Assembly (NCBI GenBank): GCA_015519975.1
Contig: WIAL01000021.1
Location: 1 to 32,300 of the forward strand
Direction of reading: 5' to 3'
DNA: 32,300 bases
Origin: Hydrogenothermaceae bacterium
Lineage (GTDB): Bacteria > Aquificota > Aquificia > Aquificales > Hydrogenothermaceae
Shown: piece by piece, positions 2,973 to 11,914 of the stretch
Layout of the letters: each line of letters begins with the position of its first letter
Position numbering within the stretch: position 1 is the first letter of the stretch
Notes under the pieces: model-generated
Databases searched by the model: none
The model's input: only the letters and a program-made list of their open reading frames with translations
What the model was told of the DNA's origin: nothing
Translations under genes and position numbers: made by a program

Positions 2973-3309
2973 CTATCTGACCTCTGTATTCATCTATAAA
3001 CTCTTTTAAAAACTCATAAACCTCTTTAGTTAAAGGCATGTCAACCCAGTAACTACCATCTTCATGTTCTATATGTATAAATCTTCCTGTTGGCGTTTGC
3101 CCAAATTTAAACTCTGTAAGCCCCCTTGAAAAATACCACTCAATATCTTCAGTGGAACTTTTCATGAAAATCGTAAATCCACCTTTTCTTTTTGCAATTT
3201 TATATATCTCAACAGGTGCTTTATTTACAATATCTTCTTCCATCCATTCATCAGACAGCACATCAACAGCTACACCTTTTAATTTTACTTCTAACTCTTC
3301 CCAGCTCAT
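2956..3309 (-). CDS. Hypothetical protein, 117 residues
   Basis: I do not recognise this family. It is a soluble, acidic protein without signal peptide, membrane segment or cysteine. The sequence reads as an alternating alpha/beta domain: an N-terminal helix (SWEELEVKLKG), a strand-rich middle (GGFTIFMKSS, EFKFGQTPTGRFIHIEHEDG, YWVDMPLT) and a C-terminal helix (VYEFLKEFIDEY). It overlaps the upstream LAGLIDADG-like gene by four bases (ATGA) and argB by 17, so it is a translated member of the operon and not spurious. The tight coupling to argB does not establish a role in arginine synthesis, because this operon mixes pathways. Confidence 0.75.
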   Translation of the reverse strand: MSWEELEVKLKGVAVDVLSDEWMEEDIVNKAPVEIYKIAKRKGGFTIFMKSSTEDIEWYFSRGLTEFKFGQTPTGRFIHIEHEDGSYWVDMPLTKEVYEFLKEFIDEYRGQIDGKNS

Positions 3310-3728
3310 TTAGCCTCCTCAAGCCATTTTTTTATCGATGAATTTCCAGTTTTATAATCTTTTTTATTCCATCCTTCAATTTCAATAAATTTTCTCACTA
3401 TGTCTTTTTTCCTCTGGGCTTCATAATGCCTTGTGAATCTAACTTCATAAAACTCTATTATAAGATCTGCAGTTTCTTTTTTAAAATTTAAAAAATCATA
3501 AATATCTTTTAAAAAATTTAGAGCTTTTCTATGAGACAATATTATTTTACCTGCATTTTTTGATTTCCGTACACTTCCGCCATATAGTTTTTTTAATTCT
3601 TCAAGGATTTGTACATTAGAAGTTTTTATTATTACTACAGGATAAACTGAATTTTTAGTTCTAATATCTTTTTTAAATGTTATATATCCACAGGATTCAA
3701 AAATGCCGGCAATGTATGACTTATCCAT
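3306..3728 (-). CDS. Free-standing LAGLIDADG-like protein, probably non-catalytic
   Basis: A 140-residue protein whose N terminus (residues 5-15, YIAGIFESCGY) fits a single LAGLIDADG helix followed by a beta strand. Further on, VVIIKTSNVQILEELKKLYGG resembles the second strand and helix of the homing-endonuclease half-domain. In active enzymes the residue just before the last glycine of the motif is Asp or Glu and binds the catalytic metal; here it is Cys13. The last ~45 residues are basic and helical, with an aromatic YxxRFTRHY stretch. It is not inside an intron or intein: it starts directly after the ispG stop and overlaps the next gene by four bases, so it is a normal operon member. I infer a domesticated DNA- or RNA-binding protein; the family assignment rests on motif resemblance only. 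Confidence 0.65.
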   Translation of the reverse strand: MDKSYIAGIFESCGYITFKKDIRTKNSVYPVVIIKTSNVQILEELKKLYGGSVRKSKNAGKIILSHRKALNFLKDIYDFLNFKKETADLIIEFYEVRFTRHYEAQRKKDIVRKFIEIEGWNKKDYKTGNSSIKKWLEEAK

Positions 3729-5844: not shown

Positions 5845-6237
5845 TTAATCCCTTACAAGGTAATTTTCTAAAGGTGAAACTTGTTTATGTTCTTTTACAT
5901 TGTTGTTTTCGTCCATGTAAACAAGGTTAATTTTAAAATCTTTTAACTCTTCATCTGAAACATTTGCATAGGAAGCTATGATTATAATATCTCCATAATG
6001 ACCTAGCCTTGCAGCAGCACCGTTTAAGATACATTCTCCGCCGTATCTTTCTCCCGGAATAACGTAGGTTGAAAACCTTTGACCGTTATTTACATTGTAA
6101 ACTTCTATTTTTTCAAAAGGAACGAGGTTTGCTGCTTCCATTAAAGCCTCATCTAAAGTTAAAGAACCTTCATAATGAAGGTCTGCCCCTGTAATTGTAA
6201 TTCTATGAATTTTTGATTTTAAAATTGTTCTTTGCAT
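5845..6237 (-). CDS. panD: Aspartate 1-decarboxylase (pyruvoyl-dependent)
   Basis: Makes beta-alanine from L-aspartate for pantothenate and coenzyme A. The proenzyme self-cleaves between Gly24 and Ser25 to create the pyruvoyl group; exactly this GS pair is present in YEGSLTLD. Downstream the ERY, NGAAARL and GDIIIIASY segments are typical of the family, and the 130-residue length fits. The start codon overlaps the stop of the upstream prenyl synthase gene by one base (TAATG), and the next gene begins one base after its stop, so it should be translated from the operon mRNA. No other pantothenate gene is in the window. Confidence 0.97.
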
Positions 6238-7199
6238 TAAACTTCCCTCTCTACAATATATTCGGCCAAGTTTTGAAGTTCTTTATTGTATATATTATCT
6301 GGAAAATGGGACAAATTTTGTATGGCTTTCATCACATAATCTTTTGCAACGTTAAAGGCTTTTTTGTGTCCTTCTTTTTGTAAGATTATATCTTTTGCTT
6401 TTTCTATATCCTTATTTTCTGGATTAACAGTCCTAAGTAATTTTTTTATAAATTCCTTTTCTTCATGAGAAAGGTTATCTCTGACAGCAATTAACGGATA
6501 TGTGACTTTTCCTTCTCTAAGGTCGTTACAAACAGGTTTACCGAGTTTTTCTTCCGTTGAAATGTAATCTAAAACATCATCAACTATCTGAAATGCTCTT
6601 CCTATGTTTATACCATATTCATAAGCTTGATTTAACAAATTTTCATCAGCCTTTGAGTAATTTGCCCCAATATAACAGCATGCTGCAAATAAAACAGCTG
6701 TTTTACCATCTATAATTTTAAAATAATCTTCCTCAGAAAGATCAAAATCAGCAATTTTTTTAAGTTCTAAAAGCTGTCCTTCTGCCATTTTCTTTACAGC
6801 ATCAGAAACAACTTTTATCATTTCAATGTTGCCGTAAGTTGAAAAAAGATACAAAGAGTTTGCATACATATAATCACCTGTTAAAACAACAGTATCATTT
6901 CCAAAAACTTTATTTGCTGAAGGTTTTCCTCTTCTTGTTCCTGCACCATCTACCACATCATCATGAAGGAGTGAAGCTGTATGAAGATACTCCATAGATA
7001 TTGCAAGAGGAAGTAAGTTATCTAGATCTTCACGTTCTAAAAGTTTTGCAAAGGATAAAACAAGTAAGGGTCTTAGGTTCTTACCGCCGCTTCCTAAAAT
7101 ATAATTTCCAACCTTTAGTATAAATTTAACATCTGAATCCATATATTTTGTCAGATTTTCCTTTACTAAAGTTAAAAGCTCTTTTTTTAACTTCTCCAT
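6237..7199 (-). CDS. ispB: Long-chain trans-polyprenyl diphosphate synthase
   Basis: Class I prenyl synthase that condenses isopentenyl diphosphate onto an allylic primer. Both aspartate-rich motifs are visible: the first in LLHDDVVD followed by RRGKPS near residue 80, and the second in IVDDVLDY near residue 205. The GGKNLRP substrate motif lies near residue 35. The 320-residue length and lack of a signal fit the octaprenyl/heptaprenyl (IspB/HepS-II-like) group, and the likely role is making the side chain of the respiratory quinone. Chain length cannot be read reliably from sequence. The gene starts 18 bases after the tRNA-Arg 3' end, so it is probably expressed by read-through from the upstream operon. 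Confidence 0.9.
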
Positions 7200-7216
7200 T
7201 TTACTCCTTCTGTTTA

Positions 7217-7291
7217 TGCGCCCGGCTGGATTTGAACCAGCGACCTTCGGCCCCGGAAACCGATGCTCTATCCAGACTGAGCTACGGGCGC
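7217..7291 (-). tRNA. tRNA-Arg (anticodon CCG)
   Basis: Read on the minus strand, this folds as a complete tRNA: perfect 7-bp acceptor stem (GCGCCCG with CGGGCGC), D arm closed by GCTC/GAGC, anticodon arm TCGGT/GCCGA with loop TTCCGGG and so anticodon CCG, a short variable loop, and a T arm GCTGG-TTCAAAT-CCAGC. The discriminator base is A, and CCA is not encoded. It sits inside a protein operon between endonuclease IV and the prenyl synthase. Its first 24 bases are also the last eight codons, including the stop, of the endonuclease IV gene. Confidence 0.97.
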
Positions 7292-8128
7292 CTTAATTAA
7301 ACTCCTTAATTTTTCCATATTTATAATATCCATATTACCCTGTTTAGGTGTTTCAAGTATAAAAGGCAGTTTAGAAAAATATTCATCATTTAAAAAAAGC
7401 TCAAATCCTTTAAGTCCTATACTACCTTTCCCAATATGCTCATGCCTATCTTTTCTAGAGTTAAAAGGTGTTTTTGAGTCATTGCAGTGTATAACCTTTA
7501 TTTTATCAATTCCTATTAAAGTATCAACTTCATCTTGGTAATCTTTAAACCCTTTTTTTTCATTTATTTTATAACCTGCAGAGTATATATGGCACGTATC
7601 AAGGCAAACGCCTATATTTTCACTTTCAAAAGGCTGTATTAAAGCTTGTATTTCTCGAGTGGTTTTCCCTATCTCTCCTTTCTGTCCAGCTAAAGTTTCT
7701 ACTAAAAATATTGTGTTTTTTAAAGATACATTTTTAAAAATTATTTCCATTGCTCTTAATATATTATTAATTGCTTTTTCTTCATTTAGACTTTTTGCCT
7801 TTCCTGCGTGTATTACATAATATTCAATGCCGAGTTCTTCACAAAGTCTTAATTCTTCAATTACTCCATTTATTGATTTTTGTCTTAAAGTTTGTTCTTC
7901 TGATGCAAGGTTGAATAGATATGAAGCGTGAACTATAAGAGGATTTATACCTGTTTTTTTTCTTTTTTCTGTAAAAGCTTGTTTTTCAATGTCTGACCTT
8001 TCTTTCCATGCCCATGCTCTTGGAGAGCGGACAAAAAACTGGATAGTATCAGCTCCTATTTCTAGAGCCCTATCAAAAACAAGGTCTAAAGATTTAGAAG
8101 ATGAAACGTGAGCTCCAAGTTTTACCAT
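7268..8128 (-). CDS. nfo: Endonuclease IV (AP endonuclease)
   Basis: Zinc-dependent apurinic/apyrimidinic endonuclease of base-excision repair. The 286 residues form one TIM barrel, and the metal ligands are visible in HASYL, VIHAGK, VETLAG, CLDTCH, VIHCNDSK and DRHEHIGKG. The start at 8128 overlaps the upstream hydrolase gene by seven bases. The C terminus is odd: the last seven residues (APVAQSG) and the TAG stop are encoded by the 5' part of the tRNA-Arg gene. RNase P cleavage at the tRNA 5' end would therefore remove the stop codon from the mRNA. This tail is likely dispensable, since family members normally end near this point. Confidence 0.97.
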   Translation of the reverse strand: MVKLGAHVSSSKSLDLVFDRALEIGADTIQFFVRSPRAWAWKERSDIEKQAFTEKRKKTGINPLIVHASYLFNLASEEQTLRQKSINGVIEELRLCEELGIEYYVIHAGKAKSLNEEKAINNILRAMEIIFKNVSLKNTIFLVETLAGQKGEIGKTTREIQALIQPFESENIGVCLDTCHIYSAGYKINEKKGFKDYQDEVDTLIGIDKIKVIHCNDSKTPFNSRKDRHEHIGKGSIGLKGFELFLNDEYFSKLPFILETPKQGNMDIINMEKLRSLIKAPVAQSG

Positions 8129-8760
8129 AGTGATATTCTGTGCTTACCTGTAATATAAGGGTTATTTTCTCTTTCGTAGCCTATTGTTGTGTTTGAGTAA
8201 TGACCGCAAACAACTTCAGTATCATCTGGAAGCTCCATAAGTTTTTGAAGGCTTTTCATAAGCTGATTAGCGTCTCCACCTGGCAGGTCAGTTCTTCCAA
8301 CACTTCCTCTGAAAAGAGTATCTCCAGCAACAAGCAGTTTTAAATTTGGCTCGTATAAGCAAATTCCTCCAGGAGTATGCCCGGGAGTTTCAATAACTGT
8401 AAACTCTAAATTCCCAACTTTTATTTTATCCCCTTCCTTCAAATCAAAATCAGGCTTAGGGCAGGGGACAGCTCCTATATGTTTTGCAAACATTGGAAAA
8501 AGCTCATCATTTATTAAAAATTCATCTTTTTTATTCAGAAAAAATGGAACATCAAACTCCTTTTTTATAAATCCGACCTGTCCAACATGGTCGATATGCC
8601 CGTGTGTATTTACAATAGCTTTTAACTTTAGACTTTCAAGTTCTTTTTTTAATTTTTCCCCTTCGGCTCCAGGGTCTATTATAATAGCTTCCTTTGTTTC
8701 ATCATCTGCAATTATTACCGTATTTTCATCAATTGGACCTACAGGTATAACCTTTATCAT
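8122..8760 (-). CDS. Metallo-beta-lactamase-fold hydrolase, glyoxalase II-like
   Basis: A 212-residue cytoplasmic protein of the metallo-beta-lactamase fold. The di-metal site is visible as THGHIDH near residue 53, then ETPGHTPGG, VAGDTLFRGSVGRTD and VVCGHYSNT. The last two motifs place it with the short glyoxalase II-like group (YcbL type) rather than beta-lactamases or RNases. Long glyoxalase II enzymes have an extra C-terminal glutathione-binding domain that is missing here, so the natural thioester substrate is unknown. It overlaps the biotin carboxylase stop by four bases (ATGA), which implies coupled translation. Confidence 0.9.
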   Translation of the reverse strand: MIKVIPVGPIDENTVIIADDETKEAIIIDPGAEGEKLKKELESLKLKAIVNTHGHIDHVGQVGFIKKEFDVPFFLNKKDEFLINDELFPMFAKHIGAVPCPKPDFDLKEGDKIKVGNLEFTVIETPGHTPGGICLYEPNLKLLVAGDTLFRGSVGRTDLPGGDANQLMKSLQKLMELPDDTEVVCGHYSNTTIGYERENNPYITGKHRISLW

Positions 8761-10112
8761 TTTTCACCTTTTAAGTACTTTTCATCAACATGTGTCGTCG
8801 TATAACTTCCATCTAAAAATGCTTCATCTTCTAAAATTTTCAAGTGAAAATCTTTTGTTGTTTTTACTCCCTCTATTATTAGCTCTTTTAATGCTCTTTT
8901 TCCTCTTGTTATTACTTCTTCTCGTGAATTTCCAAAAACTATTATTTTTGCAATTAATGAGTCATAATAAGGTGGTATATCATATCCCTGATAAATGTGG
9001 GTATCAACCCTTACTCCAAATCCCCCAGGTAAATAAAGTCTTTCAATCTTTCCAACATTTGGCTGGAAAGTATCTGGGTCTTCTGCATTTATTCTAAACT
9101 CAATTGCGTGGTATTTTTGTTTTATATCTTCCTGTTTAATATCAAGTTTTTGTCCATCAGCTATTTTTAACTGCCAAGATACTATATCGATTCCAGTTGT
9201 AATTTCACTTACAGGATGTTCAACTTGAATTCTCCCGTTCATTTCTATAAAATAAAAATTCATATCCTTATCAACTATAAATTCAACTGTACCTGCTCCT
9301 GTAAAACCAACTTCTTTTGCAAATCTAACTGCAGCCTCTCCCATTTCTTTTCTAACTTCGTCAGTTATATATGGAGATGGTGATTCTTCAAGAAGTTTTT
9401 GATGTCTTCTTTGAATGGAGCATTCTCTATCACCAAGATAAACAACATTTCCATACTCATCAGCCAAAATCTGAATTTCGATATGTTTTGGAGATTGTAT
9501 TAATTTTTCAATGTAAACAGTAGGGTCTCCAAAGTTTGCCTCTGCCTCTCTTTGTGCAACTGGAAGAAGCCGTGTAAGTTCCTGCTCATTATGGGCAACT
9601 CTCATTCCTCTACCGCCGCCTCCAGCAGCAGCTTTTATTAAAACTGGATATCCTATTTTTTTTGCTATTGTTAGAGCTTCTTCAAGGGTATCAACTGGAG
9701 GACTTCCCGGAATTATTGGAACATTTGCCCTTTCAGCCGCCTGTCTTGCTTTTGCTTTATCCCCAACAAGTTTTAAAGTGTCTGATGAAGGACCTATAAA
9801 TTTAATATTACTTTTTTCACAAATTTCTGCAAAAGTTGGGTTTTCAGCTAAAAATCCGTATCCAGGATAAACAGCATCTGCCCCTGATATCTCAATTGCT
9901 GAAAGTATTGATGGAATATTTAAATAACTTTTTACTGTGGGAGCATCCCCTATACATATAGCTATGTCTGCTATATCTTTGTGTATTGAGTTTTTATCTG
10001 CTGTAGAATAAACAGCTATAGATTCACCATTTAGTTCTCTTATGCTTCTTATAGCTCTTACTGCGATTTCCCCTCTATTTGCTATTAGTATTCTTTTTAA
10101 AGTTTTTAGCAA
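8757..10112 (-). CDS. accC: Biotin carboxylase subunit
   Basis: ATP-grasp enzyme that carboxylates biotin on a carrier protein, most simply the biotin carboxylase subunit of acetyl-CoA carboxylase. The 451 residues cover the N-terminal domain (RILIANRGEIA), the ATP-grasp glycine loop (AAAGGGGRGM, 161-170), EKLIQSPKHIEIQ, RECSIQRR with the catalytic Cys-region, and the EMNGRIQVEHP active-site strand (290-300). The usual sequence there is EMNTR; Thr is Gly here, while Glu290, Asn292 and Arg294 are kept. The start is TTG at 10110-10112 with AGAGG six bases upstream. accB is ~16 kb away at 26586. Aquificota also use related subunits in pyruvate or 2-oxoglutarate carboxylase, so the partner is not certain. 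Confidence 0.9.
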   Translation of the reverse strand: MLKTLKRILIANRGEIAVRAIRSIRELNGESIAVYSTADKNSIHKDIADIAICIGDAPTVKSYLNIPSILSAIEISGADAVYPGYGFLAENPTFAEICEKSNIKFIGPSSDTLKLVGDKAKARQAAERANVPIIPGSPPVDTLEEALTIAKKIGYPVLIKAAAGGGGRGMRVAHNEQELTRLLPVAQREAEANFGDPTVYIEKLIQSPKHIEIQILADEYGNVVYLGDRECSIQRRHQKLLEESPSPYITDEVRKEMGEAAVRFAKEVGFTGAGTVEFIVDKDMNFYFIEMNGRIQVEHPVSEITTGIDIVSWQLKIADGQKLDIKQEDIKQKYHAIEFRINAEDPDTFQPNVGKIERLYLPGGFGVRVDTHIYQGYDIPPYYDSLIAKIIVFGNSREEVITRGKRALKELIIEGVKTTKDFHLKILEDEAFLDGSYTTTHVDEKYLKGEK

Positions 10113-10126
10113 TTTTACCTCTTAAT

Positions 10127-10154
10127 TTGAAATTATTGAATAAAATTATATAAT
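10127..10154 (+). promoter_or_regulatory. Sigma70-type promoter for the pilB operon
   Basis: TTGAAA at 10127-10132 and TATAAT at 10149-10154 are separated by 16 bases. This predicts transcription from about 10161 and a ~30-base leader with AAGGA just before the pilB ATG. The 77-base divergent gap must also hold the promoter of the accC operon, but I see no comparably good minus-strand pair there. Confidence 0.7.
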
Positions 10155-10189
10155 AAAAGTTAAATTACAAAAATAATATAAGGATAGAA

Positions 10190-11914
10190 ATGTCTTTAAA
10201 AACTGATAGAAGAGAACACTCTTTATTAAGACTATTAGTTGATTTTGGGGCGGTAGATCCAGAAGTTTTACGAAATAATTCTGAAGTAATTAATAAAGAT
10301 TTTACAGAGTTATTGATCTATTTGATAAAAAATCAAAAAGCTAACCCTTTTAAAATTAAAGAGTTTTTTGTAAAAACATTTAATTTAAAGCCTTTTAAAC
10401 AAGAAATAGTAGAAAACTTGCCTGCCGAAGACATTGCTAAGCATTTTTCATTAAATTATTTAAAAAAGAAGATGTTTGTTCCAATTAATGCAGATTTTAA
10501 TAATTTAGAAGTTGTGCTTTTGAATCCTACAGATAAAGATATTCATCAATATCTTAAGTTTGTAGGAGCAGAAAAAATTCATATGTACGTTGGATCATAC
10601 AATGAAATAGAAGCACTAATAAATGAGATAGCTCCTTCATTTTCTGCTAAATCTGTTTTTGAAGATATTGAATTAAATGCTGAAGTAGAAGAAGAACAAA
10701 TAGAAGAAGAAGAAAATATAGAACATGTGGTTAAGGAGGCAGAAGAAGCTCCTATTGTGAAAGCATCTAGACTCTTTATTGTAAATGCTGTAAGAATGGG
10801 AGCATCTGATATTCATATAGAACCTTTTGAAAAGGAAGTTAGAGTTAGATATAGAATTGATGGTATATTAAGGACTATTCAAAAACTTCCAGTTTCTGTT
10901 AAAGACGCTTTAGTAGCAAGATACAAAATTATGGCAAATCTTGATATATCAGAAAAAAGACTTCCTCAAGATGGAAGAATCAGGGTAAAAATTGATAATA
11001 AGCCTATAGATTTAAGGGTATCTACTGTTCCAACTGTTTACGGCGAAAAAGTTGTAATGAGAATACAAGATGCAGAAAGTTATCTTAAACTTAAGCTAGA
11101 AGATTTAGGTTTTGAGGATGAAGATTTACAAAAATTTAGAGAAGCTATATACAATCCTTGGGGAATGATACTTGTGACAGGACCAACAGGTTCTGGTAAA
11201 ACAACTACTTTATATACTGCTCTAATGGAAAGAAATAAAGAAGATGTAAATATTTCAACTGCTGAAGATCCTGTTGAAGTTGCAATTCCAGGTGTTAATC
11301 AGGTTCATGTAAAAGAAAAAATCGGTTTAACCTTTGCTGAAGCACTTAGGGCATTTTTAAGACAAGATCCAGATATTATATTAGTTGGGGAAATTAGAGA
11401 TCATGAAACTGCTGAAATTGCAGTAAAAGCAGCTCTTACGGGTCACCTTGTATTTTCAACACTGCATACAAATGATGCGCCTTCTTCCATAACAAGGTTA
11501 ATAGATATAGGTGTAGATAATTTTTTAGTAGGTACTGCTGTAAGTCTTATTGTAGCTCAAAGACTTGTAAGAAAATTATGTCCAGAATGTAAACAGCCAG
11601 CAGAATATCCTCCAGAGTTCTGGAAAGGTCTTGGATTTTCGGATGAAGAGATAAAAAATGGACAGTTTTTTGTTCATAAAAAAGACGGGTGTAATTTCTG
11701 TAATCATACTGGATATAAGGGTAGAATAGCTGTTCATGAAATTTTAAAAATGGACGAAGATATTAGAAAGCTAGTTTTATCTGGAAAATCAGCAGATGAT
11801 ATAAGAGACACGGCAATAAAAAAAGGTATGAAAACCCTTTACCAGAACGGTCTTTTAAAGGTTAGAAAAGGAATTACAGATTTAGCTGAAATTGAAAGGG
11901 TTTTAATTAAATAA
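10190..11914 (+). CDS. pilB: Type IV pilus assembly ATPase PilB
   Basis: Cytoplasmic hexameric ATPase that powers pilin polymerisation at the inner membrane. The 574-residue protein has an N-terminal GSPII_E/MshEN-like domain (about 1-150), an acidic linker (about 160-185), then the secretion ATPase core: ASDIHIEP, Walker A GPTGSGKTTT (about 330), the Asp box, Walker B ILVGEIRD, and the His box GHLVFSTLHTND. The zinc-binding pairs CPEC and CNFC near the C terminus separate PilB/GspE from the PilT retraction ATPases. It heads the pilB-pilT-pilC-mnmA operon; GspE of type II secretion is the alternative, but the adjacent pilT favours a pilus. Pilin genes are not in the window. Confidence 0.93.
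   Translation: MSLKTDRREHSLLRLLVDFGAVDPEVLRNNSEVINKDFTELLIYLIKNQKANPFKIKEFFVKTFNLKPFKQEIVENLPAEDIAKHFSLNYLKKKMFVPINADFNNLEVVLLNPTDKDIHQYLKFVGAEKIHMYVGSYNEIEALINEIAPSFSAKSVFEDIELNAEVEEEQIEEEENIEHVVKEAEEAPIVKASRLFIVNAVRMGASDIHIEPFEKEVRVRYRIDGILRTIQKLPVSVKDALVARYKIMANLDISEKRLPQDGRIRVKIDNKPIDLRVSTVPTVYGEKVVMRIQDAESYLKLKLEDLGFEDEDLQKFREAIYNPWGMILVTGPTGSGKTTTLYTALMERNKEDVNISTAEDPVEVAIPGVNQVHVKEKIGLTFAEALRAFLRQDPDIILVGEIRDHETAEIAVKAALTGHLVFSTLHTNDAPSSITRLIDIGVDNFLVGTAVSLIVAQRLVRKLCPECKQPAEYPPEFWKGLGFSDEEIKNGQFFVHKKDGCNFCNHTGYKGRIAVHEILKMDEDIRKLVLSGKSADDIRDTAIKKGMKTLYQNGLLKVRKGITDLAEIERVLIK

Follow-up and report, generated by a model that had tools for sequence, protein, structure and literature searches.

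The nfo gene for endonuclease IV of a bacterium of the heat-loving family Hydrogenothermaceae (Aquificota) ends inside the tRNA-Arg(CCG) gene that follows it on the same strand, and this overlap is real, old and well conserved, its most likely cause being an ordinary one. The overlap lies in a stretch of 32,300 nucleotides (GCA_015519975.1, contig WIAL01000021.1, positions 1 to 32,300; hereafter the window), in which the following features are relevant:

7268..8128, minus strand: nfo, endonuclease IV (deoxyribonuclease IV), 286 aa; open reading frame with matches to TIGR00587 and PF01261, TAG stop within the tRNA
7217..7291, minus strand: tRNA-Arg, anticodon CCG, CCA not encoded; ARAGORN, RF00005 at 65.6 bits, stem pairing in relatives
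7268..7291, minus strand: overlap; nfo codons for APVAQSG plus TAG, equal to tRNA nucleotides 1-24 (5′ strand of the acceptor stem and D arm)
7268..7270, minus strand: nfo stop codon TAG, equal to tRNA nucleotides 22-24
6237..7199, minus strand: polyprenyl synthetase gene (PF00348, 253.7 bits), starting 17 nt past the tRNA
8122..8760, minus strand: metallo-beta-lactamase-fold gene (PF00753) upstream of nfo, with a 7-nt overlap with the nfo start

The 24 nt shared by the two genes (open reading frame and ARAGORN) comprise seven sense codons and a TAG situated in the D arm, and the C-terminus of the frame reads LRSLIK-APVAQSG before this stop; the coordinates from the open reading frame, ARAGORN and Rfam confirm the earlier note, which had described nfo as running 24 bases into the tRNA and taking its stop from the D arm. 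The tRNA is normal and of full model length according to both ARAGORN and Rfam (RF00005, 65.6 bits). The 286-residue product passes the family profile TIGR00587 (277.3 bits for a cut-off of 129.65), matches PF01261 at 173 bits and is, by its family profile, a true Nfo. Since the TIGR00587 match stops at residue 275 and that to the best solved structure at residue 266, the tRNA-encoded residues 280-286 are located outside the known Nfo domain. With the nfo stop inside the tRNA, a single RNA strand cannot give both the full message and the tRNA.

The description of nfo and the tRNA as members of one tightly packed operon on the same strand is borne out by the minus-strand intergenic gaps between 1740 and 10112, which range from -17 to +12 nt with the tRNA site as the exception. 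Across the family, an ORF with a start resembling that of the window polyprenyl synthetase follows the tRNA by 2-78 nt in 26 of 36 junctions, a count in which the window gene alone was profile-tested and in which one of the ten other junctions has just 23 nt of sequence. A 140-aa ORF in a tight gene run (3306-3728, minus strand) looks LAGLIDADG-like by eye and has no Pfam match at E 0.001.

Our family sample consisted of 41 Hydrogenothermaceae genomes, that of the window included, of which 38 have an nfo match and 37 a readable nfo 3′ end (G008 is the nfo-bearing genome left out of the junction count, because of its 3′ end). The tRNA-Arg(CCG) lies directly 3′ of nfo on the same strand in 36 of these 37 genomes, G030 being the exception. 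The nfo stop is inside the tRNA in 31 of the 36 junctions, with overlaps of 18 nt (n = 17), 10 nt (n = 7), 24 nt (n = 5) or 23 nt (n = 2); in one junction (G029) nfo stays open across the entire tRNA, and in four (G035, G037, G039 and G012) its stop precedes the tRNA by 1 or 5 nt, the order of the two genes being unchanged. An overlap of the type described for selB and selC (same strand, stop inside or after the tRNA) is found in 32 of the 36 junctions, kept across species and yet lost in some. A juxtaposition in 36 of 37 readable genomes including the window's, 32 of them overlapping, is not due to chance.

The geometry of the junction varies. All three reading frames are used across the family, the first nucleotide of the tRNA (G1) being at nfo codon position 1, 2 or 3, and a tree of 38 nfo rows (from which rows shorter than 180 residues were left out) requires at least five transitions between the four states of the junction; even G009 and G010, which are sister genomes, have different nfo entry frames. 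In G029, triplet 16-18 is CAG where relatives have TAG, and nfo stops just past the tRNA; since this low-quality MAG is 55% complete and its next gene is interrupted at 121 aa, an assembly error may account for the altered base. Outside the family, no tRNA adjoins nfo in the 26 genomes examined (20 + 6) out of 30 other nfo-bearing genomes of the order, and the nine loci with a tRNA at most 300 nt from nfo, among 84 with a readable stop (86 taken), all belong to Hydrogenothermaceae. As no tRNA was present beside nfo in the examined genomes outside the family, we consider the pairing a family trait.

Among 22 distinct family sequences of tRNA-Arg(CCG), 462 of 462 stem pair cells are standard, in a count that leaves out three tRNAs of the G035 type missed by the search pattern. 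Eight pairs are altered on both sides, including three acceptor-stem pairs for which the 5′ partner is nfo coding sequence, and the tRNA thus presents the cloverleaf with compensated changes among relatives that characterizes a functional elongator tRNA. Codon identity at same-residue pairs is 0.49-0.62 per 20-codon block along nfo versus 0.91 in the tail, the latter value being based on four scorable positions. The three entry frames and the compensated acceptor-stem changes indicate that the tRNA dictates the Nfo tail. Selection of the seven residues as part of Nfo might explain why APVAQ is almost invariant in one clade, but the tRNA-encoded tails of relatives are VRP, CVRSSNG-like, APVAQ or a reading of the whole tRNA, the tail begins past the end of the Nfo profile match (residue 275) and four relatives have no tail. 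We consider such selection extremely improbable and rejected it on account of the three frames and the loss in relatives.

Stop codons are frequent in the 5′ part of tRNAs. In the window genome, 20 of 32 distinct tRNAs have TAG at positions 8-10, and in 26 one or more frames meet a stop within 25 nt; on average 1.09 frames per tRNA do so, versus 0.58 in shuffles. Once its own stop ahead of a tRNA is lost, a reading frame will therefore often be closed after a short distance inside the tRNA.

We scored matches to TATAATAT (out of 8) in the 30 nt upstream of 108 tRNAs from three genomes (the window's, G018 and G033), a test that detects one box type and that a promoter of another type would escape. 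Free-standing tRNAs (n = 63) have a mean of 7.22, with 7 or more in 52 cases, and tandem tRNAs within clusters a mean of 4.40. The tRNAs flush behind a CDS (n = 15, assigned by hand from CDS positions and including tRNA-Arg(ACG) at -16 in G033) have a mean of 5.07, the shuffled value being 5.6; this mean rises to about 5.3 if the two tRNA-Met behind rpsT (at -15 and -12, scoring 7 and 7), classed as free-standing because they have the box, are moved. The strong TATAATAT box of most free-standing tRNAs in these three genomes lies about 20 nt upstream, which would imply very short 5′ leaders for them.

The 36 nfo-linked tRNAs have a mean box score of 5.5, close to the shuffled level. A tRNA promoter located inside nfo would yield the mRNA and the tRNA from different transcripts and make the overlap inconsequential; two relatives (G009 and G010) indeed present a box at 7 of 8, and promoter-like matches exist within nfo, but a sigma-70 scan of 6900-10250 gave 12 sites for 12.1 expected, which is the chance rate. 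The box score at shuffled level, the codon conservation of residues 261-280, just slightly up (0.62 versus 0.55 overall), and the conserved operon order also argue against such a promoter, making it very unlikely. We discarded a separate promoter for tRNA-Arg(CCG), as both the box test and the promoter scan gave matches at chance level.

RNase P RNA (rnpB) is present in 39 of the 41 family genomes, tmRNA over cut-off in 31 and smpB in 34 (33 over cut-off), the window's genome having all three. According to the text available from PMC10941002, Hydrogenothermaceae retain the rpmH-rnpA unit; with this unit and the RNase P RNA present, a cut at G1 of the tRNA is to be expected. It would leave a stop-less nfo RNA in 32 of the 36 junctions; that this occurs, and that it has any importance, is inferred. 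The suggestion of the earlier note that one transcript must serve as mRNA or tRNA, cleavage by RNase P producing a non-stop nfo mRNA, is thus supported by the common strand, the compact operon, the lack of a recognisable tRNA promoter and a genome that encodes smpB, tmRNA and the RNA of RNase P.

We propose that tRNA-Arg(CCG) is probably a promoterless, rarely needed passenger on the nfo mRNA, and that the overlap is tolerated rather than being a dedicated switch. One transcript of the compact operon would carry nfo, the tRNA and, in most relatives, the polyprenyl synthetase gene, and RNase P would cut at the 5′ end of the tRNA, freeing the tRNA for CGG, a very rare codon. Because the nfo frame is still open where the tRNA begins, the ribosome would continue to a TAG triplet common in the 5′ halves of tRNAs, and this read-on would add a short tail of no consequence. 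The full nfo mRNA would be readable solely before the cut, and the cut RNA, a non-stop mRNA, would presumably be removed by tmRNA-SmpB. Since CGG accounts for 3 of the 9682 codons counted in 33 ORFs chosen mechanically, a repair operon that we assume to be weakly transcribed could be a sufficient source of this low-demand tRNA, and since Nfo (by assumption) and the tRNA would both be needed in small amounts, the conflict between them could be cheap and persistent. Of the readings in the earlier note, the second, in which the overlap is tolerated and the tail dispensable, agrees best with the data. The overlap could also be selected: where the last codon ahead of the tRNA is one for lysine (AAA or AAG), a single A-to-T change would close the nfo frame there, and 32 of 36 junctions nevertheless retain an overlap.

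Alternatively, the RNase P cut might act as a regulatory step, Nfo being made from uncut transcripts alone and hence tied to tRNA maturation, with tmRNA tagging clearing the rest. The presence of RNase P RNA, tmRNA and smpB, the overlap in 32 of 36 family genomes and the same model put forward for selB/selC in the accessible text of PMC8124441 are in favour of this scenario, whereas the entry frame and the stop position drift among relatives and the tRNA has other partner genes (pncB, YeiH family) in other Aquificota. RNase P-coupled regulation leads one to expect the stop inside the tRNA in all syntenic relatives, and the earlier note had counted a stop before the tRNA with unchanged synteny against a coupling: its question whether relatives keep the overlap is answered positively by 32 of 36 junctions and negatively by the four others, which show exactly this arrangement. 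To our knowledge, the decoding of CGG has not been connected functionally with AP sites, which also counts against such a switch. A coupling of tRNA maturation to the AP-endonuclease level is thus unsupported, the frame and stop position being unconserved and the tRNA having other partners in the order; we consider the switch unlikely, and the idea is unproven. The case for regulation specific for AP endonuclease is weakened by the change of tRNA partner gene.

The location of tRNAs behind genes appears to be a habit of these genomes, and the nfo pairing is not private. Among the 33 tRNAs of the window genome, a second overlap involves smc, whose TAG is at positions 8-10 of tRNA-Ala(GGC) (L090:278-1574, contig C35). 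This overlap occurs in 2 of 29 readable smc ends (30 taken, eight further smc matches being left out), those of the window genome and G040, and it was rejected as an old state comparable to that of nfo because of this low count. In the window genome, tRNA-Gln(TTG) starts immediately past the ispE stop (L078:673-1576), tRNA-Arg(ACG) 6 nt past prfA (L083:415-1574) and tRNA-Pro(GGG) 6 nt past an IHF/HU-like gene (L091:1204-1576). The same three pairs are found again in G018 and in G033 (where the gene copies were named from sequence start and end, without profile), the spacing varying between an overlap of 10 nt and a gap of 16 nt. In these two genomes, tRNA-Arg(CCT) also directly adjoins the end of a gene matching M16-peptidase-like models. 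In Aquificaceae, reported in the text seen of PMC10941002 to use the protein-only RNase P HARP, tRNA-Arg(CCG) follows a pncB-type ORF at a distance of 1-4 nt in three of the four loci inspected (L100, L101 and L103; one profile-tested), and in three genomes of group g8 it follows an ORF of the YeiH family (profile-tested in one case) at 6-24 nt.

These observations raise the tentative and rather doubtful possibility of a tRNA punctuation in Hydrogenothermaceae, in which a set of promoterless tRNAs, flush with or inside the ends of genes such as nfo, smc, ispE and prfA, would serve as mRNA 3′ ends, RNase P generating these ends together with the tRNAs. In overlapping pairs, each transcript would then represent a one-time choice between protein and tRNA, and tmRNA would clear the cut messages.

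No report of the nfo-tRNA overlap was found in the literature searched, a corpus outside which most subscription journals lie, and in an Aquificales ncRNA survey (PMC4227106) the term 'endonuclease IV' is absent and the retrieved passages describe no such overlap. Our results show that a protein gene and a tRNA gene without a common pathway can remain partially overlapping throughout a whole bacterial family. The natural variants, with a stop inside, before or beyond the tRNA, could be used to ask whether tRNA processing limits the translation of its host mRNA. For annotation, the APVAQSG-type tail belongs to the open frame, and tools that forbid CDS-tRNA overlaps would shorten or move nfo.

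Bacterial operons in which a tRNA and a protein gene are on one transcript, such as the tyrU-tufB region of Escherichia coli, are known, the tRNA being processed out; unlike nfo, they normally have a spacer between the stop codon and the tRNA. In animal mitochondria, as far as the consulted parts of PMC8124441 and PMC10941002 describe them, tRNAs are likewise flush with or overlap protein genes on one transcript and are released by RNase P, but the present case concerns a bacterial genome with many other promoters and mostly free-standing tRNAs.

The closest known parallel is selB/selC (Mukai 2021), and the nfo case is of the same kind in an unrelated gene pair. In the portion of that paper available (PMC8124441), the selB-selC overlap is described in Alphaproteobacteria and others and, as for nfo, a bacterial tRNA gene lies over the 3′ end of a protein gene on the same strand, the tail is encoded by the tRNA, a stop ahead of the tRNA has been regained in some relatives, and a non-stop mRNA after RNase cutting has been proposed. 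Also in common are the nesting of the whole tRNA, there in many cases, and a stop within the tRNA, there in Dyella and Luteibacter. For nfo, partial overlap is the rule throughout the family and all three frames are used. Furthermore, the selB-selC tRNA and protein share one pathway, a property not required for the wider kind, whereas tRNA-Arg, with anticodon CCG, and endonuclease IV, of a DNA-repair family, have no known link.
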